This document shows, in pieces, positions 1 through 63,447 of a stretch of 64,000 nt of DNA (positions are counted from its first letter, which is position 1; each line of letters opens with the position of its first letter). This DNA is from Spinacia oleracea. Lineage: Eukaryota; Streptophyta; Magnoliopsida; Caryophyllales; Amaranthaceae. The position numbers and the translations under genes were made by a program. The notes under the pieces were generated by a model that was given only the letters and a program-made list of their open reading frames with translations, did no database searches and was not told the origin of the DNA. Where the stretch lies: positions 125,634,385 to 125,698,384 of the forward strand of contig NC_079487.1 of NCBI RefSeq assembly GCF_020520425.1, in the 5' to 3' direction.

Positions 1-466
1 GCAGAATATTAGTATACCATTTGAATGGTATACCTAGTATAGATTAAGACTTCCTCCCAGTGTTTGTATCCTCATTCTTGGAAGTTGTTACATGTACCAC
101 AGGGTACCAAATAGTAACATACCCTAGGTTCCTATTGATTGTGTTCACATAAACAACCCCACATGGGATTAAAATATAAATCTAAAATAGCAACTCCACA
201 TAAAATTTGAATTTTTAAACTAATCACAGCCAAGAGTTTCATACCCCGAGGGTACATGTAGCCTTTTCGCTCATTCATGACCCTATAACTTGATAAACGT
301 GACCAAAGCCAACCATGACAATATGACACTCTTTAGCTGCCATGTTGCCGGTGCAATTCCGTGCGCGGCCATTTTTTTAAAAAAAAAGCTGACTTCTTGC
401 CTGTATATGGTCGTCGTGTTTGCTTATTCTAAAATGATATTCAATCTAAAATCAATACTAGTCTAA

Positions 467-561
467 TCTAATATATAAAATATAACAGTTGGTATATATA
501 GGAGTTTTATTTCATTTTAACAATTTGATAGAATTCGTGCATCATAAGGGCTAAAATCTAG
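467..561 (+). mobile_element. Possible mini-Helitron (95 bp)
   Basis: The segment begins with TC after an A and ends with CTAG followed by T, which are Helitron-like termini. The region before the end (GTGCATC...GGGCTAAAATCTAG) resembles Helitron 3' ends, but the hairpin expected there is degraded. It is very short, so chance resemblance is possible. Confidence 0.28.
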
Positions 562-2056
562 TAAACTAAAAAAGTAATGGAGTTAAAGGGAGTGAAGAGA
601 GGGTGGGTAAAGGGAGGGCAAATGTGTATTTTCACACATAAAATGTGGGCATTTTTTAGGAATATGTGGGCGTCCTTTAAAAACCCCCTAATTAAATAAA
701 TGATGTCAACAAGATTCAATACGGAGTATCAAGTATTCATACTCGTACTCTGTTATGATCATTACTTCCATGAACTACGACTTTAACCAACTTTTAATAT
801 ATTGTGAGATTTTTGAGATGCATAAGAATTACGGACGTGGGTGTAGAATTCGTACTTGAGACTTATCGTACACATAAGCGGTTTTATTTTTAACCATTAG
901 ACCAAGACCTCGTCGGTACGTAGAGGGAAACTAATTAGTTACTCATAAGATATTATTAAACAATATATTGAAGCTGAGTGAAACAAGATCTCACATTATA
1001 TGTATTGAAATAAAATCAATTACATAAGAAATTTAATAAAATCTTCATCAAAACTATGATAGTCGCGCGAACAAATCTTGCATTGTGAGACATCTCTAGC
1101 TTACACATACAAATGGAAAATACAACATTTTCAGAGAGACGATATCACGATTTGTTGTAGTCAGGTCACAATGATGATTTCGTTTGACCCATCAGATTGC
1201 ATTCGAAAAATTTACAATGGCTACAAAAGTCTTGTGTAAATCTTCACCAACTAACCAATTTCATATACTCTGCCAATACTATACTGAACTCAAAAACTCG
1301 TCTTGAACAAGTGTCATCCCACCTCAATGGAACTCACTATAATCAAAAGTTGTAATTTTACTGAAATTAACAAAACAAACATGAATATGGAGAGGCGGAA
1401 TATGGGGATTTCTCTTGCAAGCAAGAAAATCAAACCCCTCTCATGCGGGTGGAAGGAGAGTCTTTTAACCACTAGTTCAATTACTAGGTCAACCCGTGAT
1501 TCTCTACAAAGATAATTGATGTATTGAAGATTTAACTCCATCTAATTCCATACACAAATGTATAGTAGACTAAAGCTTTAAATCCATCCGTCCATCTAAT
1601 TACCTACATGAAAATATAGTCAACTATATCCAAATTAACCTCAATTTCTAAAATAGTAAGTATGGAAAACTATGGTAATAATCAAAGAAGAATATTTACT
1701 AATCTATCCGAAAAATAGAAAATATGATAATTAATATCCCTTGTTTTTAGGTCATTAAGATTAACATAATTTGCTTGGTTGGAGTTACCATGAAACCTCA
1801 CAACAATCACAAGTCAAAACACGTTTTTATACCGTCCTTCGGTCCTTCCCCCTACACACACTCGTCTTGTTATGTTTGTTTATTACTTTATCTTTAATTT
1901 GATTTAATAATTTCATTTTTTTTATTTATTATCCTCCAAATCACAATCGTACGAAACTTCCTTCTCTTTTCTTTACTTTTTATTTTCGTTTTTTATACTA
2001 ACTTTCCTTTTTCAATTTTGTGTCGTTCCCTTTTTACCCCTCAATCCTCCTTTGTG
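562..2056. other. Intergenic, no gene recognised
   Basis: AT-rich sequence upstream of the MYB gene. Open frames here are short and share no recognisable motif. One TACGGAGTA 9-mer lies at 720-728. The last 200 bases are pyrimidine-rich, as is common for plant proximal promoters. Confidence 0.6.
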
Positions 2057-2060
2057 TATT

Positions 2061-2068
2061 TATATATA
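2061..2068 (+). promoter_or_regulatory. TATA box of the MYB gene
   Basis: TATATATA lies about 90 bases before the MYB start codon. Transcription starting about 30 bases downstream would give a 5' leader of roughly 60 bases. The position, not a test, supports the call. Confidence 0.5.
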
Positions 2069-2156
2069 CCAAACCAAACCTCAAACCCAAAAAAAATCCT
2101 ATCATTTAGAAAAACAACCCATCCAAAAAAAACAACAACCACCGCCACCTAAAAGA

Positions 2157-4752
2157 ATGACAGCGCCGCCATCTAAAACACAAAGAACATGCTCACAGTG
2201 CGGCCACAACGGCCACAACGCTAGAACTTGTACTGAACTTTCCGGTGCTCTTCCACCTCCTACACCTGGATTCATGCTATTCGGTGTCAGATTAACCGCC
2301 GCAGAAGGCTCTGTTTCGCCTTCTTCACCGCCGATTTCTCCGTCGTCTTCATCGTTGTCGTCGTCTTCGTTCTTTCGTAAGAGTATGAGTATGAATAATC
2401 TTTCTCAATATGAACAACGACAACAAGATCAACACAATTTTCCCCTCGATTCTTCTAATATTAATAACGTTGTTCCTTCTGGCTATGCTTCCGACGACGC
2501 TCTTCACGCTTCTGGTTGTCAAACCCGGGACCGCGAACGCAAAAGAGGTATAATGTTTTCTCTATTTATTTAATTTTAATAAAATACGTGTTAATTTTTT
2601 TCATTGGTTAGGATACGTGGGAGTTAAGAATCGTAAATTGCAGATATTTTGTTAATTTCTAATTGGTTATGGTGATTTTTAATTAATTAAATTAATTAAT
2701 TAATTGATCAAGTCATTGGTATAAATGAATCCATTTATGTACGATTTTGCATAAAGTTAGCGTTAGAATCCATCTTCTTTTTTAACAAATCAATTTTATT
2801 GCAGGGTTTGTACTTTGATTGATTGAAGGTTCATATTGGATTATACCAAATGACAATAGTAAAATGTAATTTAACAATGTTTGACACAATGTTTGACAGT
2901 TTAGATTTTAGAGTTTAGAGTTTAGAGTTTAGAGTTTAGAACACATTCATGACTTGTTAAATTAAGTCAAATGTAATTTAACAATGTTTGACAGATTAGT
3001 GTTTAGAGTTTACTTTAGAACTGTACTACATGTACCTTACCTATTTGGACTGTAGAATCGAGTTGAGTTTTGATACACCTAAACCTTTCTTATCTTATCT
3101 TTATGTTGAAATCAATGCAACTTTTACCAACACTTCAAAATTTCATAGAAATGTTTTGCAACTATGTAGGAACTCCCTGGACAGAAGAAGAGCACAAACT
3201 ATTTTTGATGGGGTTGGATAAGGTAGGAAAAGGAGATTGGAGAGGGATATCTAGGAACTATGTCAAGACAAGAACACCAACCCAAGTTGCTAGTCATGCT
3301 CAAAAGTATTATCTCCGGCGAACCAACCAAAACCGCCGTCGCCGTCGCTCCAGTCTCTTTGACATCACTACTGATACGGTGAGCTAACTTATTTTTGTTC
3401 TCAGTTTTGCTTGGTTGACAAATTACCATGAGAATTTTATTTTTTCTTATGCAATCACATTTTGTCCTCTTGTGTAAGGAGGTAGGAAGTAGCTTTCCAT
3501 GAAAAGTTTTTAAGCCTTTTTCTTTTATTTTCTTTGTTTGATTGTTTTTTTTGTTGGATACTAAAACAAGTCAAGTTTTGCACATCTACTACTCTATTTA
3601 ATATTCTAGCTTCCTTGATAGTATTGCTAAATAATAATAGAACTTGATTTGAGGCCGGCTAATATAAATCATTATATTTTTTCTTCTTACATTTAAGTAG
3701 TCAGAATAAGTTTAGTTATGTCAACCACTTTTGTATAAAATTGTTATGTGTCATTTTTGAGAATAGAACAAAAATGTTGTTTTCCATAATCATAGAGTAG
3801 CTACTAATTTAATGTCGAGAATGCTTTCTTTTTATAGTCGTGGATTCAAGGTCATTTATATAAATCTATAGATTATTATACACTCAACTCCGTACTTTAT
3901 ATTGCTTGTATCATTTTAATCAACTCATGTTATTCTATATTATCTTTCTTTATGGTGAGATATTTTTTTTATTGTTCATTATATAAAATAAAATGCACTA
4001 TCACGTTTCGATTAAGGCTAATCAGATGTGAGCTCCTCCTTAATTAGACGGAGTTCTTGATAGAAATTTGAGGACGCACCCGGAAGTTTTAACGTACCCG
4101 TATAATAAAATTGTATTTTGATTGTCTCACCCTCTCAACTTATGCATACAACTTATTTATAGTTGGTGTATCCTACTTTCTAGATTTTTCTACCCTTATT
4201 ACATAATTCCACATCACATATCCTAGATGCTTCTAGATATGATTTTTCATTACTCTGTTTGTTGATCAATGTTTTGAACTATTGTAGAAGTTTGTGATCC
4301 TAGATGTTTATATTTTTATTTGTTCCAAGTTTGTTAAATTAAACCATGTTATTCTTGGAAATAATTTTTTGCAGTTGAGCCGTTCATCAAGTGAGAGTCA
4401 ATTAGCAAGCCTAGACACAACTTGTCATCAACTAAAGGCAAGTGCACTTCATCAAGCAACACAATTTCCTTCCCCTTACCCTCCTTCATTTTCAACCAAA
4501 CACAGCCGTTCAATTCCGGTCCCACCTTCCTCAAAGATGGCCAGTCTTAATCTAAACCAATCACCAACAACGTCGTCACCATCATCATCAACATCAACCT
4601 ACAATACTAACAACAAAGAAATAGAATATGAACCATTCCTTTCCCTCAAGCTCTCACAACAAGCACCGTCAGATGAGGAATCGTCGAGGCGATCCCCCAC
4701 CTTTCGAGGATTCAACGACAGTGGTGGAGATAGCATTATTAGTGTTGCTTGA
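2157..4752 (+). CDS. R1/SHAQKY-class MYB transcription factor, MYBD-like
   Basis: Nuclear DNA-binding regulator, 325 residues from three exons: 2157-2547, 3170-3378 and 4375-4752. Both introns obey GT-AG and keep frame (phase 1, then phase 0). Domains in order: a CCHC zinc knuckle (C12, C15, H20, C25); an LFGVRL motif at 41-46 (the R/KLFGV-type repression motif); a serine-rich stretch; one MYB repeat from about 132 to 181 starting TPWTEEEH; then a run of arginines followed by SSLFDIT. Near the C terminus LSLKL (289-293) fits the LxLxL EAR repression motif. The order of parts and the [21 protein letters not shown] segment match Arabidopsis MYBD (At1g70000) and At1g19000, so a transcriptional repressor in light or hormone responses is likely by family. 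Oddity: the signature reads SHAQKYY (172-178) rather than SHAQKYF. An upstream in-frame ATG at 2052 lies before the TATA box, so 2157 is preferred. Confidence 0.92.
2907..2940 (+). repeat. Telomere-like heptamer repeat in MYB intron 1
   Basis: Four perfect TTTAGAG units plus a partial fifth, one base from the plant telomere unit TTTAGGG. A shorter stretch of the same words recurs at about 2998-3011, beside a repeated ACAATGTTTGACA word. Confidence 0.85.
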
Positions 4753-6576
4753 AAGAGAATAATAAAAAGAATATGATTATGAAGATAATGATTAGATTAC
4801 ATATTTGTTTGGGTTGTAAAGGGTGGTGGTGATGAAGATAAGTTTCTTTAGATCATATCATATTACTATATTAGTATCATCATATATAATTAATCATATT
4901 ATAGTCATGTGATTAGTCAAAATGCTATGATTTCAGATATGATTTTTGCAAGTATTTTTTAGGTGATTCCTTTTGGTTGTACAGGGCAAGAGGTCCAAAG
5001 TGATGCAATATGTGGACACAAGTTGAGTGAACATCGTTTTCTTTATGTTGTTTTTGCCTTTGTATTCACTCTTAATTTTGTTTTGTTTTGTATTTTGGTA
5101 GGATTTTTTTAATTTTTTATATAATATCGTGTCACGTTAATTTTTGGATTCTATCATTTCTTTTCTTCCTTCTATCTTTAGACGATGATACCTACAAAGT
5201 TGGCTAGAAGTACCTACGAGAATTACCATTTCAATAAGGTTATTAATCTTACCTTATAAAATAAATATAAGCTAATAAAATAAAAACAAATCCCAAAAAC
5301 CTCTTATTATTCTCCTTTCATAAAATCTACATGAAATCTACAACCGTTGTTTCTGTTAGGAGATTGGAAGGTGTCTCAACTCATCTAATCATGGCCATTT
5401 ATAGTTGAATTTGTCCATATATAGTACTAGTTTTCTTTGTTTTTTTATAATTAAAGTTTGATAATAATATGCGGAGATGCTTGTGGGTTTGATTGGGTCA
5501 CGTTCCAATTACTAGTAACCAATGAATATGGTGCTATGTGTTACTTGTTGCATTAGTTGCAAGTTGGCAATTGGCATAAATAGTTGACACTAATTTATGT
5601 AGGCCAATGACCTCACCAAGAAAAGGACTTGTACTATCACTATGGCTTGCTAATTTGTTCGTCATGTTTTTGTCTATTGGTTGGGGAGAAGGATCCATGA
5701 TAACAACCACACCCAACAGCGAAGGACTCTTTAATTCTTGTACTCTAAACAGCAACCACGGGGAGGGGTCATTCACCATACAGGTTGAGCGAACTTGATT
5801 AGGATAATAAAAGTGTCTCTATTATGTTCATCTTATTTTCAATTACTTTTTTAAAAATAAATCTCAAGTTGATTTCGTGTGCAACGATTTAAAATTTTCT
5901 ATGTACTTATATTATTCAATGACGCTAGGAAGTACACTAGTGTGTAGTACTATGTAGCTTTTAATTTCACTAATTAAGGTAAGTATAACATTGATCATGA
6001 TCTTCAAGAGATAAAACTACACAAAGTAAACAAAAATAACTTACACTTATTAGGTAACTGATTTTGGCACATAACTTTGTTGATTTTTGGCATCTCTATG
6101 TGAGTAGAGCACAAGAAGTTGTGCCCTCATACTCTCAGAGCGGTCTATGCATTAATTTTAGAAAAATTTAAGTTCATTAACCAATCAAGTGACAACTTGT
6201 CTATGAGTACATACGGGTCAATCACTGAAACGCGGTTGTTCTCCAAGATCTGTTTAACACCAAACAAAAATAGCTTAGCAAGTTAGCAACATTGGTCCAA
6301 TCAATTAATTCCATAGACATCCTAAATGGAGAAACATGAATGAAAAGACAACCTCAGTGAACTATGTTCACTAAGCAGGCCCATTCAAAACAGTTAAATA
6401 AGCCTACACCAACATAAAGGTCCACAATGAGTTGCCCAAAGATTTGAAGATCATCCACAAAACCTCAAAATAGGACAGCCCGTAAGGATATGTGGGCTCC
6501 TTAACCATATAATTCTTTTTTCTTTTATTGACAGTAACGTTTAATGGATCCACACATTACATAATACGTTACATAA
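4753..6576. other. Intergenic, one doubtful small ORF
   Basis: Holds the 3' flank of the MYB gene, then AT-rich sequence. Nothing is recognised apart from a doubtful 63-codon frame at 5607-5798, listed separately. Confidence 0.5.
5607..5798 (+). CDS. Doubtful small secreted-peptide ORF (63 aa)
   Basis: A 63-residue frame with a hydrophobic stretch near its N terminus (LVLSLWLANLFVMFLSIGW, about 8-26) that could be a signal anchor, followed by a polar tail with a single cysteine. A weak TATA-like CATAAATAG lies about 30 bases upstream. I recognise no family, and the reverse strand is also open here, so chance is a real possibility. Confidence 0.18.
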   Translation: MTSPRKGLVLSLWLANLFVMFLSIGWGEGSMITTTPNSEGLFNSCTLNSNHGEGSFTIQVERT

Positions 6577-7039
6577 TCTATACCTAGTCTATACCTAGTA
6601 TTTAAAAAGAATAACCATACATAATTAAATGACACATGTCATCTCCTTCTTTCATCCATATTTTTTTTTCCATTAGATGACACATGTCACCTCTTTCTTT
6701 CATCCATAGATATTTTCTTTTTATTAATTTTTTTCAATTTTTCATATTGTTTGTTATACGAAGCATTTAACAACTTCAATGCATTTTCCACTCCATCTTC
6801 CTCATCCAATCAATTCACCATTGAATTCATATTCAACCGCTACTATTTCATCTCCATCTTTGACACTTAACAATAATTCAACATATAATTTATATAATTT
6901 TTTTAAAAAAATTGATCACCTCTATATAAACCATATACTCTAAGTAAAACCACGAGCCCTCAATAAAATTAACACTTTAAAAAAAGGGCTTAACAAACAC
7001 TATATAATTGCCCGTTCTTTGAACGGGCTCCAAAGCTAG
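6577..7039 (+). mobile_element. Short non-autonomous Helitron
   Basis: Starts TCTATACCTAG after an A. It ends with an 8 bp hairpin (GCCCGTTC, TTT loop, GAACGGGC at 7010-7028), seven spacer bases, then CTAG followed by T. Insertion between A and T, the TC start, the CTRR end and the subterminal hairpin are the defining Helitron features. The 463 bp interior has no coding capacity. Confidence 0.82.
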
Positions 7040-7282
7040 TTAAATAAATACTCCATAAAAAAGTTGATAGTACAACGTTTCGACACATTTGTCCATGCAC
7101 AACTTTAACATTATTAAGTTTTATGCACTAGTAAAAGTTATATAGTCCCTTCGTTCTTGAATGTTAGTCTCATATCCGTATTGAGTTGTTCTTTTTTATT
7201 AGTCCCTTTTAAAAAAATTCCTTATTTGTCCAACATTTATCCTCATTATACCTTTAATAATAGCTATTTTTTTTATGTTGGT

Positions 7283-7738
7283 AAAGAACTACTCCGTTCA
7301 TCTAGGTTGAGTCTCTCCCGTTCCAAGGAAAGACTCCATGTACCTTTTCAAGAAGGTATAAGGTCACTGTCTCATTTGTTTGTGAGCATTTCACCCTGCT
7401 TACAAAGTTGGTTCAATCAATGAGTGGATTGTCTATCCTTCCGTGTCTCTCTTTGTCGTTCAAGTGTCACAGGGGTTCAAGGGCTTCCTTTCGACGTCTA
7501 CAAGCTTGCTTCGAGCCAAGTGAAAATGGGAATGAAGAAATGTTATGGGGCTTCATCAGTCAAGGGCTGACGATCAAAGTATTCAATGACTTCGCGGTTT
7601 TTTAACGTTTACTGTTTATTTTGGTTTGTAAGAGCTAGTAAAGCTCTAGTAGTAGTTTGTTGTAATATGTGAACCTTTTCAATTAAGTATGTTTAAGCCT
7701 AAGTCAAAAAAAAAAAAAAAAAAAAAGAACTACTCCGT
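7283..7738 (+). mobile_element. Retroposed insert: poly(A) tail and 15 bp target duplication
   Basis: AAAGAACTACTCCGT occurs at 7283-7297 and again at 7724-7738. Between them lies about 425 bp of unique-looking sequence ending in a run of about 21 A (7706-7726). This is the hallmark of LINE-machinery insertion. The body has no recognised domain. It could be a 5'-truncated LINE tail or a processed copy of an mRNA. Short frames at 7157-7423 and 7408-7605 cross its borders or lie inside it and are not credible genes. Confidence 0.82.
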
Positions 7739-14744: not shown

Positions 14745-15660
14745 GACCTAGACATGATCTAGATAGTTCGGTTATTATCTAGACATATAAGTTCTGATCT
14801 AGAAATGATCTGTATAGATCGGTTCTGATCTGGACATGATTTGTACAGAAGTTCTGATCTGGACATGATTTGTACAGAAATTCTGATCTGGACATGATTT
14901 GTACAGAAGTTCTGATCTGGACATGATTTGTACAAATCAGTTCTGATCTGGACATGATCAGTTCTAATCTGGACATGATCTAGACATGATTTGGACAACT
15001 CAGTTCTGATCTGGACATGATCTGTACAGTTCAATTCTGATCTAGACATGATGTGTATAGTTTAGTTCGGATCTGGACATGATCTGTACAGTTCAATTCT
15101 GATCTAGACATGATCTATATAGTTCAGTTTTGATCTAGACATGATCTGTACAGTTTAGTTATGATCTGGACATGATCTGTATAGTTCAGTTTTGATCTGG
15201 ACATGATCTGTACATATCAGTTTTTCTCTGGACATGATCTGTACAGATCAGTTCTGATCTGGACATGATTTGTATAGATCAGTTCTGCTCTGGATATGAT
15301 CTGTACAGACCAGTTCTGATCTGGTCATGACTTGTACAAATCAATTCTGATATGGACATGATCTTTGCAGATCAATTCTGATATGAACATAATCTGTACA
15401 GAGTCGATATCTAGACCAGTTATAATATACACATATCGATTCTAATCTGGACATGATCTGTACAAATCGGTTTTGATCTGAACATATTGGTTCTGTAAGG
15501 ATCGGTTCTGATATAGACAAAATCTTTGCAGATTTGAACATGATCTAGACATGATCTGTACAGATCAGTTATGATCTGGATATTATCTGATCCTCTAAGT
15601 TCTGGTCTAGATATATAATGGTTCTGATCTATAAAAATCAGTTATGATATGGACATGACC
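14745..15660 (+). repeat. 29-31 bp satellite inside the foldback element
   Basis: About 30 imperfect tandem units of the form TTCTGATCTGGACATGAT plus TTGTACAGA(TCA)G. Adjacent units at 14830-14930 are almost identical, while those toward 15660 are more diverged. The unit includes GATCTG words like the CTGATCTGAT arrays at both ends of the element. Minus-strand open frames rich in DHVQIR and SRSEL are by-products of the repeat. Confidence 0.9.
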
Positions 15661-15810
15661 TAATCATATTGTTTCTGATCTGGACTTAATGATTTTAATT
15701 TGGACATGATGAATTTGAATGTTTTGTTAATGTTTTTTTTATGCCTTAAGTAATAGATTTTAATTGCGCCTACAACAACATTCTTTTTTATTAAAGCAAT
15801 AATAGTAGTA

Positions 15811-37385: not shown

Positions 37386-38578
37386 TTCCGAGATTTGACT
37401 TTATTCACCATACATCCTTGTAATTTTAATTATTTATCATATACCTTTGAGATTTCATTTTCTTGCATGGAAGTTTTAGATACCAGAGGGGCATATGGTA
37501 AAAAAAATGAAAGTTTTTGATGATCCGGGTTCACCCGAGGGTACAATGATGCACCTAACGACAAAATCAAGTCATGCAAGAAATGAATGCACCCGAGTAC
37601 CTCGAGTTGCACAATGATCACTGTGCATCCTGTTTTTAAATGAACACATAGTCCAAATATAAATAACATATTGTTCATCCCTTATGAGCATATGATTCAA
37701 ATCCAAATAACATATAGTTCAAATATTCTACTTGTACATGTACATTGAAATCAGTCTCCGTGTTCATCAGATGATCAATAAATATTCACCAGGGTGCGTA
37801 ACGAACACTATGCATCCAACTAGGTGTATAATCCAATTTGCGTATAGAAGCATTGGTTCCTCATCCATATCACTATTGATGATAATCTATCTATTACTTT
37901 GTACTAAAACATACACCAGAAATTACCCATGTCACTTCCACGTGTAATTTTTTCCCGCAAAAAACATACCAGTACTTCCTAAAATATATCTACCTTTATT
38001 TTTTATTTTTTTGTTACTATCATTTTTTATAATGGTTTACGTATGGACAAAATATTGGATTACAGAATACGACAATAATAAATACCACATAATAATAATT
38101 TGTTCAGAATTATTTTGGAAATATTTTAGTCAAATCGGTATATCAATAATGAAAAATAGCATATTAAGCATATAAAATATGTAAACGTAGTAGGACATAA
38201 AATTTGTATTAGATGATTTATAAGTTTATTTAAGATTTATTAATTAGCTTTAATGGGGGAAATATTTTATACGGAGTAATATGGTAAAATAATAATTTTA
38301 TCATATTCGTATGTGCACGGGATATAATCTAGTACTCCGTAGTACTCTAAACAGATGTCCAACATCCGTATCCTCTTATATTAAAAAGCCCCAACGAAGG
38401 TTGGGTTTTGCATAATTTTTCTTTCCAAACTTGCCCTTTCTTAGTATATTAATTACAACTTGTTTTTTAAAAATATTTTCTATTATAGGTTTGATGGATC
38501 TTAATGCTTCTAGACATAGTGTCATAGCATATATCCATGTGGTTAAGGACTAAGGAGTACAAAGTAGAAAGTGTAATG
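37386..38578. other. Intergenic, no gene recognised
   Basis: AT-rich, with TACGGAGTA/TACTCCGTA words at 38270 and 38333. The frames at 37430-37678 and 37732-37947 carry no motif. Confidence 0.5.
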
Positions 38579-50210: not shown

Positions 50211-51207
50211 ATGAGATGAAGATCTTAGGTGGTTTGGAACGTGACATGGAGACAAGGCTCCTCTTGCTTTATAGTGGTGAGTTCCCAATACCAACACTAC
50301 ACTTTTGCTTTGAATTGTGTATTTTCATGCATCTAGAAAAAAAATACAATGCCCCAAAAGGATATACTTAATATCATCCCTTAGGTATGTATGAGAACAA
50401 GATAGACCAATATTGTGTGACTCGAGCGATGTTCTATGTTTTTACTTTGAATCTCATATGGTCACTAATAGCAAATAAACACACACATATTTTAAATTAG
50501 ATTTATTTTTGCACGGGGCTGAAAAACGTTGTGAATAGCTTGTTTCGACTCAATAGAAGTTGGATAGCTTGTCAAAGAGGAATTTGAGTGGATCCATCTT
50601 TAATAATTTGTACATAAATCTGAAAGGAAAGTCAACATCCTTCCAATGAAAATGGTAGTTCATTTCAAATTACTTATCTTTTTCTTCATAAATTGCGGTT
50701 ATCATTTGAGATGGTATAAGGTGAGAATGAAAATTTGTGAAGAAAAATACAAGTCTGGAATAAGATTTCATTAGCATGGACATTATGAATCTATTTTCCT
50801 TGTCAAATCACACGTAAATTCGATCTCATTCCACAATTTAGTACCTGCCATCGAACTAACCGTTAAAATTATTGCTAAGCATTAGGCCTATTTGGTTCAT
50901 TATTAGTAAAGGCCGGAAAGGAAGAGAAAAGAAAGGAAGGGAAAAGAAAGAAAAGAAGGGAAATAGATTTTATTTTCCTGTGTTTGGTTTAAGGGAAAGA
51001 AATGAAGGGAAGAGAAAGAAAATATAAATGACAGCTTTTATTTTTCTCTTTCCTTCCAAATTCCTCAAATTTTGGGAGCGATTTCCTTCAATATTGTTCA
51101 AAGAACGTCAAATTCTCAAAATGCGCCACTTTTTAACTTAATTCCCATCATACCGTCCATGTCAGCATTAAAACCGTTTTTTTTTTTTTTTAAACGAAGC
51201 GGAACTA

Positions 51208-51280
51208 AACCGCTATCTCAGGTAGCGGTTGACTTAAGTAAACCGCTATCTGAGGTAGCGGTTTATATGAGATAGCGGTT
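51208..51280. repeat. GCGGTT hairpin cluster, left
   Basis: AACCGCTA-loop-TAGCGGTT occurs twice (51208-51230, 51241-51262), followed by one more TAGCGGTT half-site at about 51273-51280. Confidence 0.9.
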
Positions 51281-51318
51281 TATGATCACTATTTATAAAT
51301 GGTAAAAAAAAAAAAAAG

Positions 51319-51375
51319 CGCGTCAGGTAGGGGTCGAACCTATATATGACGCTCTATCCATTGAGCTACAGACGC
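51319..51375 (-). pseudogene. Truncated tRNA-Arg-like pseudogene
   Basis: On the minus strand it reads GCGTCTGTAGCTCAATGGAT (acceptor, D arm) and then TAGGTTCGACCCCTACC (T arm) with the pairing 3' acceptor TGACGC. Most of the anticodon arm is missing, so the length is 57. It resembles plant tRNA-Arg(CCU) as I remember it. Confidence 0.75.
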
Positions 51376-51441
51376 TGATGTTGATAAGTTAAATTTGGTA
51401 ATGTTTATAATTAATATTAAGAAATGGTAAAAAAGAAATAA

Positions 51442-51515
51442 GCGTGCTAGGTAGGGGTCGAACCCACGACCTTCTACTTAGAAACACGCTCTAACCACCA
51501 CTGAGCTACATACGC
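51442..51515 (-). pseudogene. Second tRNA-Arg-like pseudogene (74 nt)
   Basis: Minus strand: GCGTATGTAGCTCAGTGGTG, D stem GAGC, then a 5 bp anticodon stem TTTCT/AGAAG closing only a 4-base loop AAGT, then GTGGGTTCGACCCCTACC. Length is right for a tRNA. The anticodon loop is three bases short and the D loop is enlarged, so it should not be functional. Confidence 0.75.
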
Positions 51516-51597
51516 AATTGATGTCACAAGAGGTTACTTCTAAGTTATATTTCTATTTAAACTGTAATTCATGTTAAAAATAATTTACAACTAAGCA

Positions 51598-51725
51598 AAC
51601 CGCCATCTGAGATAGCGGTTTTGTTTTAAAGCAAACCGCTATCTCAGATAGCGGTTTATAACATTGAACCGCCATCCGAGATGGCGGTTTGCTTTAAAAC
51701 GAAACCGCTATCTCATATGGCGGTT
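51598..51725. repeat. GCGGTT hairpin cluster, right
   Basis: Four AACCGC(C/T)AT-loop-AT(A/G)GCGGTT hairpins in a row, separated by TTTAAAGC- or ACATTG-type spacers. Paired substitutions (CCATC/GATGG, CTATC/GATAG) tend to keep the stems. Confidence 0.9.
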
Positions 51726-52074
51726 CAATGCTGAACCGAAAAAAAAAATACTTCTCTTTCTCCCTGCTTACGTGGACGGTATGGTGGAAAATAACTTAGA
51801 AAGTAACGTATTTAGGGAATTATTCGATCTTTATGCAATATTGAAGAAAATCGCTCCAAATTTGGGAGGAAAGGAAAGTGAAAATTTTATAAATGAGCTT
51901 TCCTTCCAATTTTCTTCCTTTCTTCCACTTCCCATATAATTATTTGTACCCAATACAGGAAACCTTATTTTATCTTTCCTTTCTTTTCTTTTCCTTCCAA
52001 TTCCTCCCAACCAAATAAAGCCTTGATGAAAGGAAAAGTATCTAATATATAGAAGTAGTTTTAGACTTCTATTA

Positions 52075-59113: not shown

Positions 59114-60607
59114 TAACCATCTACCAAAATCTCTTTTTGTTAGTCAACATTAGTCAATCATCTATATTTCACTTTTTCGACAGACCAATTTAAAATCCAA
59201 ACTCGCCCCAATATCACGTGTGATTCACCATTTACATATATAAATTTTATTTTGCATGGAATTTTTAAGTTATTGCAATCATTTACATTAATTTATATAA
59301 AAAAATTGATCGCAAACATATTAATAATAAGGAAACTTAATCATGTAGATCATATGACTTTGGACATAGTTGATTACGATATATTAGTTAAAATTTCAAT
59401 CAACATGCTCTTAAGACTTCAATATATAATATGAGCGAATAAATTATTATCCGTGCTCCGTATAAAAATGTTACGATAATTAGAATGTGGTAAAAGTTAT
59501 TTTTGACATTTAAGATTAAGTATAAGCTTCGTGCTAAAGAGATTATATGGCTAGGGGGCTCATTTTGTTAATTAGTTAACAAAGGGCCTATAAAATGTTT
59601 GAGACAACCTTGTTAAATACATTAAATCAATAGTTACCTTTTGTTATACATATCCGTATTCATCATATGCCACAAATTCTTAAATAGTTTATAGTATTAT
59701 AATAATATAATTGATAGTCCAAGTTAAACTATTATAAGATTTCTATATTAGTTATTAGAATTGTATGCAAAAAAATTTCATTGGATTACAAATAATAAAC
59801 GATAAAAGGAACGTTCCAACATATCATTACTCGGTATATGACAATTTCTAAACGAAACTTGATAGTACTTACAATTAGTCATTATTTATGTGCGGAGTAT
59901 ACTAAATAATTCGTAGTATAATCTATTATTAGCATACGTAATTAGAACATTTTAAGTAAAATATACACAAAGTATATTAATTATTTTAACATAGGTTAGT
60001 TACCGATATTATAAAAGAGACAAATAAGAGCGGCATTTGTTAGCTACACATCATTTTGCCTCTCTTTTAGTATAGTGCTCCGTATACAAATGTTGTTAAA
60101 AGTCAACTAAAATAAAGTCAATTGTTTAGCCTAAAATATTTGGAAGAGATTTTTTACGTAGAGAAGACTACATGTTAGTTGCGCATCATTTTTCTTGTTT
60201 ACTACTTCTTCCATTTTTTTTGGATAAACCACTTTATTTTCACGGTTATTAGTAAGTAACTTCAATTATTAATATCTTAAATTATCAATTAGTAAACATT
60301 ATTAAAAAAAATGGTAGTACTATGTAAGTATTTAGACAATCCACCAAAATGCTACGGAGTACATGAGTATGTTCATCATAGAATATAATCACCAAAAAAT
60401 AGAAAAAATAGAGGTATGTGTGAATATAATAGTCAGTGCAAAAATCAAATAGTTGCATCTAAAAAATTTAGGAATTACATAGTAATGTAGTAGATATTAT
60501 ATTACACAAGTTTTTCTCATGTTTAAAGAAGTTACATAATTTTCTTAAAGTAGTAAAATATTATTATTAATGGTGATGATAATTATAGAATTTAGTTGTT
60601 AAATATA
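59114..60607. other. AT-rich intergenic, no gene recognised
   Basis: Contains a minus-strand TATACTAAAAGAGAGGC segment at about 60055-60077 that recurs near 62673 and 63170. TACGGAGTA at 60353. Frames are short and AT-driven. Confidence 0.5.
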
Positions 60608-62111
60608 CGGATATTTCATGAAATGCCCCCGAGTTTTTCCATAATTCACCAAACGCCCATCAAGTTTCAATAATTCATAAAATACCCCTCACAATTCGTA
60701 CAAATACCCAACATACCCTTACTAATAACGGACCGTTAGTCTGCCGTTAGCCAAGTTTCCAATTCACCCAAATGCCCCTATTCTGAAACTTATTTCACCA
60801 AATGCCCCTATTGTGAAACTTATTTCACCAAATGCCCCAAACTTAAATATAACTATTTTGATGTTTCAGCGACTAGTTTTTGTGTTTGAAAGGTAGTTGT
60901 TGGTCACGGTTGACTATAAAAGCCCCTTTGCTGAATGGTTCTTGTAAGTTAGATGTTATTTTGATTTGCTTTGCTAATTTCATAAGATTTTTGTCATGAG
61001 TTTTCTTTCAAAATCATCATCCACACCCAATGATCGAGTCCACATATATTAGAGTACCTACCAAATTTTGTTATTGTGGTAGGAAATTTGTCATTCGAAG
61101 CTCTGATACAACACTCAATCCACAAAGGTTGTACTACAAGTGTGATCCTTGAAACAATCTGAGATGGTGCAAGGGAGTAGTTGAGAAAGAAAACAAGGGG
61201 CAACAACACGAAGGAAAATGCGGGGTAAGCTTAGACGAAGGAGAAAGTATTGAAAACAGGCGAAACAGTAAGATGCAAGAAGAATTGAAGTAAATGAAGA
61301 AGAAGCTAAAACAACAACAAAAAGTAGTCAAAGTTGTAATACAAATGGGGATATTGATGTTTGTAATTTTACTGTTTGTAATCATGAAGTAAACACAAGT
61401 AATGAGAAACAAATTCACATTTCATAAATAATTGATGTTGCATAATCTGCACAAAATACCAAACTGTGAAGCATTTCTGTTTTTAGCTTCACTTACAAAA
61501 CATCGTTGCACCAACTACATTTAATGTTATTTTCTACTCAATGAATATGTGCAAGATCAAAACAAATGTTCAAAAAACTACCCCAAAAAGCATTAGCAGC
61601 TATCCAAAAGAGCTTGTGGAACACCACTTCAACCTCCATTCCTACCACAATAACAAAATTTGTTAGGTACCCTAATATATGTGGACTCATTGGGTGTGGA
61701 AGATGATTTTAAAAGAAAACTCATGACACAAATCTTATAAAATTAGCAAAGTAAAGTAAAATAACATCTAAAATACAAGAACCATTCAGCAAAGGGGTTT
61801 TATAGCCAACCATGACCAAGAACCAGTTTTCAAACACAAAAACTAGCCGTCGGAATATCAGAATAGCTATATTTAAATTTGGGGCATTTGGTGAAATAAG
61901 TTTCATAATAGGGGCATTTGGTGAAATAAGTTTCAGAATAGGGGCATTTGGGTGAATTGGAAACTTGGCTAACGGCGGACTAACGGCCCGTTATTAGAAA
62001 GGGTATGTTGAGTATTTGTACGAATTGTGAGGGGTATTTTATGAATTATTGAAACTTGATGGGCGTTTGGTGAATTATGGCAAAACTCGAGGGCATTTCA
62101 TGAAATTTCCG
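60608..62111. mobile_element. Mutator-like element with long inverted arms
   Basis: TTAAATATA is duplicated exactly at 60599-60607 and 62112-62120, the 9 bp target size of Mutator elements. Ends are CGGATATTTCATGAAATGCC and, inverted, CGGAAATTTCATGAAATGCC. Arms of about 475 bp (60608-61085, 61639-62111) match closely. Each arm contains a TATA box (CTATAAAA) and the first codons of a small GRF zinc-finger gene. The middle carries the rest of that gene. No transposase. Confidence 0.88.
60996..61392 (+). pseudogene. GRF-type zinc-finger gene remnant inside the MULE
   Basis: From an ATG at 60996, about 80 bases after a TATA box, the sequence encodes MSFLSKSSSTPNDR. After a frame change it encodes VPTKFCYCGRKFVIRSS, TTLNPQRLYYKCDP, then a stop in place of a residue, NNLRWCKGVVEKENKG. 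A charged linker with another stop and a hydrophobic tail (VVIQMGILMFVILLFVIMK) follow. CxCG, NPxRxYYxC and a final W/C are zf-GRF landmarks, and a C-terminal membrane segment is usual in small plant zf-GRF proteins. The mirror arm (minus strand, ATG at 61724) starts with an undamaged MSFLLKSSSTPN ... FCYCGR but stops at its arm border. Confidence 0.75.
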
Positions 62112-62244
62112 TTAAATATACTACGTATAAAATAGTACAATCGATGACAGTTATAATTTTCTCATTTAGTTCCTTAATATACTACGTATAAAATAGTAAT
62201 ATAGATGACTTTTTATAATTATCGCATTTATCTTTTAAAATATT

Positions 62245-62792
62245 ATAGAGTACTATTGCAATTTTTTTATACACTCTTATGCATATTTGATTGATTTTCT
62301 AATTTATTTGTGTTCGAATTATGTAAGTACGAAATACAAATAAGTAGACTACTCTTGAAATTTTATAAAAATCATACTACGTACTCGGTATAATGCATGT
62401 ATTAAGTTTTTATAAAAAGATAATCTTATATTGGTTATATTTGTTACCAAATATAGAAAAGGAATATAATTTTAAAAAATATTCCGTATCTGTAGAATGG
62501 AATATTTTTATTTTGAGCAAAAGATAATCAAATATATTTTTGAGGTAAATGTTAACAAAATAATTATAGAATCAAGTATTTTATTTTATTTTTATATTAT
62601 TTTTATATCTGTAAGAGAGGCCAATCAATGAGTGAAAATTGTCTTCACCACATTGATTTCCTCTCTTTTAGTATAATAAATATATATAAGGTAATGTAAT
62701 TTTTTTTAATACATTCTTATTCATACTTGATTAATTTTCTAATTTATTTGTATTCAAATTATATAAGTACGAAATAAAAATAAATAGACTAC

Positions 62793-62823
<31 letters not shown>

Positions 62824-63179
62824 AAGTCATACTATGTACTCCGTACAATGGATTAAATTTTTATAAAAATATAATCTTATATTTGTTATCAAATATAAAA
62901 AAGATAATCTTATTATTCTTATATTGGTTATATTTGTTACCAAATATAAAAAATATTTATAATTTTAAAAAATATTCTATATATAGATTGAAATCTTTTT
63001 TATTTTCAGGAAAAGAGAATCAAATATTTTTTTTCGAAGTAAAAGTTAACAAAATAGTTATAGCATCAAGTATTTTATTTATTTTTTAATTTTTTTTAAT
63101 ATCTATAAGAGAGGTCAATCAATGAGTGACATTTGTCTATCACCATATTGATTTGCTCTCTTTTAGTATATTATATAGA
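62245..63179 (-). mobile_element. Helitron-like 5' end with two diverged tandem copies
   Basis: Minus strand starts A|TCTATATAATATACTAAAAG at 63179, a Helitron-type start. Two blocks of about 440-495 bp (62245-62695 and 62700-63175) share, in order, TTCTAATTTATTTG, AAGTACGAAAT, TTGTTACCAAATATA, AATCAAATA, TCAAGTATTTTATTT, AATCAATGAGTGA and CTCTCTTTTAGTATA. A long T run sits in the second copy. Non-coding. Confidence 0.55.
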
Positions 63180-63447
63180 TTTCGTTGGACGAATTTATAG
63201 TTTTGACAAATCAGAACGTGAATTAACTGAAAATTTGAGATTTTCTGAGACTAAAAGTAAGGAGGAAAATACAAAATAAAGCCCACATAGTCAATGAAGA
63301 CGGTAAAACACATAAAATGTGATTATTTTCAAATTGTGCAAAATAGAAGGCGATAATTCCATAAGTATTTACAGAGTAAAAAATAATCGCAATAGAAACC
63401 CCATTTACAAAAAAGACCAATAAGGCCAACCCAATTTCAGCGGGACG

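Follow-up and report, generated by a model that had tools for sequence, protein, structure and literature searches.

The closest described counterparts of the element analyzed here belong to the maize MuDR/Mu system. MuDR has long, promoter-bearing TIRs and two convergent genes, one of which encodes the transposase (PMC3310237, PMC3440606); mudrB, which faces mudrA, is apparently required for integration (PMC6446971). Mu killer, described as a locus, is an inverted duplication of a MULE end, the mudrA end, that includes the TIR and the first part of the gene, and silencing is reported for Mu killer only (PMC3440606). Accessory genes are likewise found in other plant MULEs, namely vanB and vanC of VANDAL and MULEs with an antisense PMD (PMC6446971), and Abermu of barley combines a transposase with a second open reading frame (ORFR) in opposite orientation (PMC9168764). 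Pack-MULEs and multiple-TIR MULEs are non-autonomous, with rearranged ends and pieces of genes (PMC3310237).

Our window, 64,000 nucleotides of Spinacia oleracea DNA (NC_079487.1), contains a 1,504-bp MULE at 60608–62111 that shares features with all of these systems. It resembles MuDR/Mu in its target duplications (TSDs) of the 9-bp class, its promoter-bearing long TIRs and its link to a convergent two-gene, putatively autonomous element, in which a GRF gene faces the transposase gene as mudrB faces mudrA; this last likeness is one of arrangement. The second gene differs from that of MuDR in that its product is a GRF zinc-finger protein whose tail is hydrophobic, and, unlike the Mu elements, the non-autonomous element repeats a single end as a palindrome. 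Like Mu killer, it is an inverted duplicate of one MULE end with the TIR, promoter and gene start, but the duplicated end is the GRF end, both termini are good and the junction recurs at 154 genomic places. By analogy, the window element is a mirror-image Mu killer in build that has kept two good ends. In contrast to Pack-MULEs, its gene piece comes from the family's own two-gene element, and the protein domains of the VANDAL and PMD-bearing MULEs differ from GRF. The main text of the Abermu paper (PMC9168764) leaves GRF unmentioned, and the term has 0 occurrences in the main text of PMC6446971.

The element is flanked on both sides by the identical sequence TTAAATATA (60599–60607 and 62112–62120). 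Its left arm (60608–61085, 478 bp) aligns with the inverted right arm (61639–62111, 473 bp) at 92.05% identity over 478 columns. An earlier note on this DNA had claimed an exact 9-bp target duplication and inverted arms of ~475 bp, and had made arm alignment beyond about 100 bp a test of its reading; the sequence bears out both claims and passes the test. The 9-bp TSD falls within the 9–11-bp range of MULEs, and the arms are long terminal TIRs as in that class. The element tips have CGGATATTTCATGAAATGCCC outermost and CGGAAATTTCATGAAATGCCC read from the opposite side, followed by 30-bp subterminal repeats.

On the plus strand, the left arm comprises the TIR, the subterminal repeats, the GRF promoter and the first part of the GRF gene, with ~86% identity to the GRF end of a two-gene relative, L081. 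The outer TIR, common to both L081 ends, spans 60608–60749 (element positions 1–142 match 5295–5155 of the reversed locus, L081r, at 87%, and also 214 onward), and the tandem subterminal repeats (CCAAATGCCCCTATT..., repeat families D1–D6) lie at 60768–60838. The TATA box CTATAAAA follows at 60914–60921 and the ATG at 60996. The right arm has the same TATA box on the minus strand (61798–61805) and a GRF start codon at 61722–61724; the start-codon context is the same in both arms (60996, plus; 61724, minus). Whereas the left GRF copy runs on through the complete frame to a stop at ~61392, followed by the region 3′ of the gene as in L081 (61398–61562, plus), the right copy stays open up to the arm border at 61639 and ends there (open frame 61629–61742, minus). 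Sequence and alignment thus agree with the earlier note, which had described a TATA box and a GRF gene start in each arm, with the left copy reaching the middle and the right one stopping at the border. Beside the inner border of the right arm lies a transposase-coding remnant (61588–61641, minus; frame FHKLFWIAANA, in an open frame at 61538–61708, minus).

Scoring 40 of 2,653 first-look candidates (E = 0) identified at least 40 genomic copies, including the window copy, at 97–100% identity, which excludes a chance origin and answers the question of whether other copies share these termini. All but one of the 40 are practically full length, the exception starting at base 63. A script called an exact 9-bp TSD in 38 of the 40, among them L036, where the call is ambiguous because the element sits in an A tract; L047, which the aligner had clipped owing to a deletion, was added by inspection as the 39th, and L029 has no TSD. 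The last TSD base is A in 35 of the 38 script-called cases. Pairwise divergence among the 40 copies ranges from 0.13 to 3.5% (median 2.2%), and each copy is 0.9–1.9% from the consensus; the presence of several tight subgroups suggests that more than one copy acted as a source. A 33-base pattern across the central junction, allowing at most 3 mismatches, had 154 matches in the genome (reversed control, 0), a count of pattern matches that is to be distinguished from the 40 copies read individually. The shared junction suggests that a single rearrangement founded the family. Misassembly is a common hazard with palindromes; given that the same junction recurs at all these places, on several contigs, and that the TSDs differ among the copies read, we regard the chance of an assembly or sequencing artefact as negligible.

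The GRF frame in this family is a pseudogene. In the window copy (60996–61392, plus; 90.1% nucleotide identity to the intact GRF gene of L081), a frameshift puts the left-arm ATG in a different frame from the GRF domain, and the domain frame is interrupted twice, by TGA and by TAA. Alignment to the L081 protein shows between one and three stops in the domain frame of every one of the 40 copies; the left-arm ATG is in frame in 16, out of frame in 19 and not measurable in 5. The window frame matches the Pfam GRF model weakly (E = 0.074; 13.6 bits, below the curated cut-off of 25.9), so its identification comes from intact relatives. What the earlier note called a small GRF zinc-finger gene therefore keeps its GRF identity through those relatives, but not its status as an intact gene.

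A search of the genome with the Pfam GRF model (150 scored of 485 candidates, 148 matches listed) gave, among the listed matches, a high-copy group with an open frame of 164 residues. The m164 element, on C2, is 6.7 kb long with identical 165-bp TIRs and the TSD TATTTATTA; it has a GRF gene at its left (PF06839, E = 1.7e-7) and a MULE transposase on the opposite strand (DBD_Tnp_Mut, 3e-12; MULE, 2.2e-6). At its ends, GGAAATTTTGTGCAACACTACC, it resembles the window element, while the rest of the DNA is dissimilar. An open frame of 296 residues, of aminotransferase type by eye, lies ~300 bp past its right end (L078, C2 ~3.969–3.970 Mb), so m164 sits beside a gene.

At E = 1e-3, none of the first 30 GRF loci (L048–L077) matched the window element in DNA, which hinted at a separate origin; that idea was dropped when a protein search with the window GRF frame (150 scored of 1,086 candidates, 21 of the 150 stop-free) gave close stop-free relatives. 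Among these, L081 is a 5.1-kb element (L081r 214–5295) with the exact TSD TATAAAATA, ends that are 90% identical over 145 bp and an intact 130-residue GRF frame convergent to transposase-coding stretches, which are 38% identical to m164 over the catalytic part (tblastn against m164 pieces). Relatives with similar TIRs thus enclose a MuDR/MULE-type transposase, as detected by tblastn in L081 and by Pfam in m164 and L080. The L080 element was rejected as the candidate autonomous partner and replaced by L081, because it is a deletion derivative (SWIM, 2.7e-6, Pfam) without the catalytic region and with a non-canonical right terminus; its GRF protein had no PF06839 match at E = 0.1 and matched Zn_ribbon_GRF_2 at E = 0.015. 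A further L081-type locus, L079 (C3:100114700–100122200), is 99.4% identical to L081 over 1,892 bp; its GRF and transposase matches are 12 kb apart, with an open Copia-type frame (by eye; reversed locus 4340–7499) between them.

To gauge how general the pairing is, we compared window-type GRF matches with the 150 best matches of the L081 transposase piece. A convergent transposase lies within 5 kb of 10 of the 21 stop-free GRF matches (extending the limit to 15 kb gives 11, and a twelfth has one at 15.2 kb), as against 2 of the 129 matches with stops. Among the 11 stop-free matches unpaired at 5 kb, six have, by eye, a transposase end within 5 kb without a catalytic match and, as in L080, look like internal deletions. 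The other five comprise two with a transposase at 12 and 15 kb and three with neither within 20 kb, except for one transposase end ~19 kb away. Viewed from the transposase, all of the ten best L081-type matches have a GRF match on the convergent side (eight at ~2 kb, two at 12–15 kb); over the best 36, the tally is 13 with a GRF match and 23 without one within 16 kb.

The m164 type gives a comparable picture. Of the 148 listed Pfam GRF matches, 56 have one of the 150 best m164-transposase matches at a distance of no more than 5 kb, and all 56 pairs are convergent; random placement gave a mean of 0.235 and a maximum of 2 such pairs in 200 trials. Spacings are 1.8–1.9 or 2.7–3.0 kb, with one at 4.3 kb. 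The pairs form two groups, comprising 21 of the 26 transposase matches nearest m164 and 32 of the 45 ranked 105–149, which are mostly 59% identical to m164; middle-ranked transposases have a GRF match in only 3 of 78 cases. The remaining 92 listed GRF matches have no transposase within 5 kb among those 150, and the 150 best PF10551 matches pair with only 1 of the 148 within that distance; because each partner list holds the best 150 matches, a missing partner is not proof of absence. In this genome, three transposase groups thus regularly carry a GRF gene as their second gene, which is a finding for these groups rather than for all MULEs. The earlier note had offered the GRF gene as either a cargo or an ancient partner of the family: its intact, convergent presence in related elements supports the partner reading, and the cargo reading found no support. 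Three clustered GRF matches on C2 (L048, L049 and L053; 55.69–55.74 Mb), 97–99% alike over 3 kb, are perhaps tandem genes outside MULEs.

The element maps onto L081 piecewise. Positions 1–955 are collinear with L081 214–1155 and include the TIR, the promoter, the whole GRF gene and its 3′ region; 981–1034 match L081 2176–2234 (83%), within the transposase; and 1032–1499 match L081 687–219 inverted, which is the GRF end again. The ~25 bp from 955 to 981 match neither L081 section. Both ends of the element are thus GRF ends, and the element is very probably a non-autonomous MULE derived from a two-gene MULE in which the transposase end gave way to an inverted copy of the GRF end. The parent type would have had a small GRF zinc-finger gene with its promoter at the left end and, convergent to it, a MuDR-type transposase gene at the right. 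In a single event, for which aborted gap repair or template switching following excision is the most likely mechanism, the right end would have been exchanged for an inverted copy of the left end; ~54 bp of transposase sequence would have stayed behind between the arms, and both termini would have become TIRs with a GRF promoter behind each. Judging from the similar TIRs and the target duplications, a related transposase probably amplified the element in trans. The GRF open reading frame of the palindrome decayed. Copies of the 30-bp subterminal repeat also occur inside L081 (reversed locus 2362–2490), between transposase-coding stretches and ~130 bp from the stretch retained in the palindrome; these internal repeats may have helped template switching.

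Consensus arms differ by 6.1% from each other (29 of 473 positions) and by ~13% from L081. Where the arms differ and both relatives agree, 10 changes fall in the left arm and 9 in the right, 8 more are common to both arms and 10 sites are unassignable; these near-equal numbers indicate a common ancestor for the two arms and a similar amount of change in each by the time the sampled copies spread. Identity to the closest intact relatives is only ~86%, and the direct parent was not found among the scored matches.

Two other origins were weighed against end replacement. Because gene capture by MULEs is known and the unpaired GRF matches, including the three-match cluster on C2, mean that host GRF genes may exist, the element might be a Pack-MULE whose arms took up part of an ordinary GRF gene of the host. 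A host-derived internal fragment is not what we found: the left-hand 955 bp run collinear with L081, a two-gene MULE, and the closest intact homologs examined lie in MULEs with the same ends and the same order of TIR, promoter and GRF gene, which makes capture highly improbable. The second alternative takes the element for an ordinary MULE with long TIRs that have always held a promoter and gene start at both ends, in line with the long promoter-bearing TIRs typical of MULEs (PMC3310237). The ends shared by the relatives are too short for this, at only ~145 bp in L081 and 165 bp in m164, and a search with the L081 transposase end (40 scored of 94 candidates) yielded no inverted pair by eye; on both grounds we rejected ordinary long TIRs, an origin that we rate as very improbable. 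The GRF end of the m164 family likewise gave no palindromes by eye (40 scored of 46 candidates), so palindromes are not the rule in these elements. Self-comparison of L048–L077 found a single inverted repeat of at least 60 bp, of 61 bp in L076.

The GRF protein of the relatives shows the marks of a GRF zinc ribbon. In an alignment of five family proteins, C24, C26, C48, C57 and the CYCG and T..NP.R motifs are invariant, in agreement with the PF06839 pattern CxCG...T..NP.R...C...C, and the C terminus is hydrophobic by eye. A profile built on the family had 8 matches in the PDB, led by NEIL3 (two) and ZCCHC4 at E = 0.006–0.04; NEIL3, ZCCHC4 and APE2 carry GRF domains. An AP-lyase was fifth (E = 0.29), and the last five matches also included RPN1 and three unrelated DNA enzymes (two phage integrase entries and PacI). 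An NCBIfam search with the m164 GRF protein gave no match. GRF domains of repair proteins bind single-stranded DNA, which suggests testable roles for the GRF protein in transposition intermediates.

When L081 is compared with L080, identity reaches 94.6% in the GRF coding sequence, as against 82.7 and 82.9% in its flanks (Fisher p = 1.6e-8, coding versus flanks) and 86.7% in a transposase exon. The dN/dS ratio for this GRF pair is ~0.36, from small counts of change (8.5 synonymous, 12.5 non-synonymous; Fisher p between 0.02 and 0.05 according to how these are rounded). Within the m164 group, dN/dS values of 0.21 and 0.16 come from just 7 and 16 changes, and the flanks are less conserved than the GRF gene in one comparison and slightly more conserved in the other, that of L069 with L068, where GRF identity is 96.2% and the flanks are at 97.0 and 97.3%. 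The GRF protein of the relatives is a conserved second gene product, probably with an accessory role like that of mudrB in MuDR, a role in transposition that we infer from the gene arrangement and the mudrB analogy.

The earlier note had also proposed that two facing promoters would give convergent transcripts and hairpin RNA, making the element a source of small RNAs. The promoters hold at the level of sequence: CTATAAAA is kept in three aligned relatives and is present in both arms of all 40 copies (shifted by the deletion in L047), which makes hairpin RNA plausible. The predicted transcript (60938–61780) would fold at −274.7 kcal/mol, against −163.0 kcal/mol for 20 shuffles, although any palindrome folds by construction and the energy is no evidence of function. 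Exact 24-mers shared between the arms of the 40 copies and the relatives number 38 positions in L081, 33 in L079 and 10 in L080; in L081 they form blocks in the TIRs (5–32, 35–63 and 5020–5049) and in GRF codons (421–479), so putative small RNAs from the element could partly reach the two-gene relatives.

By analogy with Mu killer (PMC3440606), and compatibly with the origin by end replacement, double-stranded hairpin RNA might then be processed to small RNAs that silence the GRF gene and TIRs of the two-gene relatives. Both TATA boxes have been retained throughout, the identity blocks cover the TIR and the GRF codons, and the predicted fold lies below that of the shuffles; yet retention may only reflect youth, the exact 24-mer matches are few, a palindrome folds in any case and stop-free relatives persist, and we hold this added function to be possible but doubtful. 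A broader proposal would join it to the protein: a previously unrecognized, conserved GRF accessory gene facing the transposase, with a charged, helix-like middle and hydrophobic tail (by eye), and a multiplied palindromic "GRF killer" that would silence the two-gene relatives through hairpin RNA. We consider this combination unlikely; if true, suppressor palindrome and GRF accessory gene would evolve against each other.

In the mostly open-access literature searched, we found no report of GRF genes in MULEs; GRF and transposon terms co-occur in papers on a wheat QTL (PMC7729826) and spinach vitamin C (PMC11844115) and in PMC3503983 and PMC5413045. Within that scope, the multiplied palindrome of a GRF end and the convergent GRF gene appear to be new. 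Mu killer is known as one locus, and the spinach family offers a countable, genome-wide case of a multiplied inverted-end MULE derivative. For many small plant GRF genes, a likely origin is as transposon genes, which bears on gene annotation, and the pairing bears on the open question of what the second genes of MULEs do.

Other repeats occur in the window. Just beyond the element, a 34-bp direct repeat (91%; 62115–62148 and 62176–62209) starts within the right TSD, and a longer one (62254–62685 and 62692–63180, together 62254–63180) is 76% identical. Dense, diverged direct repeats, ~68–74% alike, fill 14745–15695. At 37388–37445, ~57 bp resemble the element's subterminal part (71–72%; E = 0.02–0.3), a similarity that may be fortuitous or may mark where an older, related MULE ends. 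An inverted repeat of ~320 bp at 70% identity spans 50947–51991, with a palindromic stretch at 51598–51725, and is perhaps another old foldback element.
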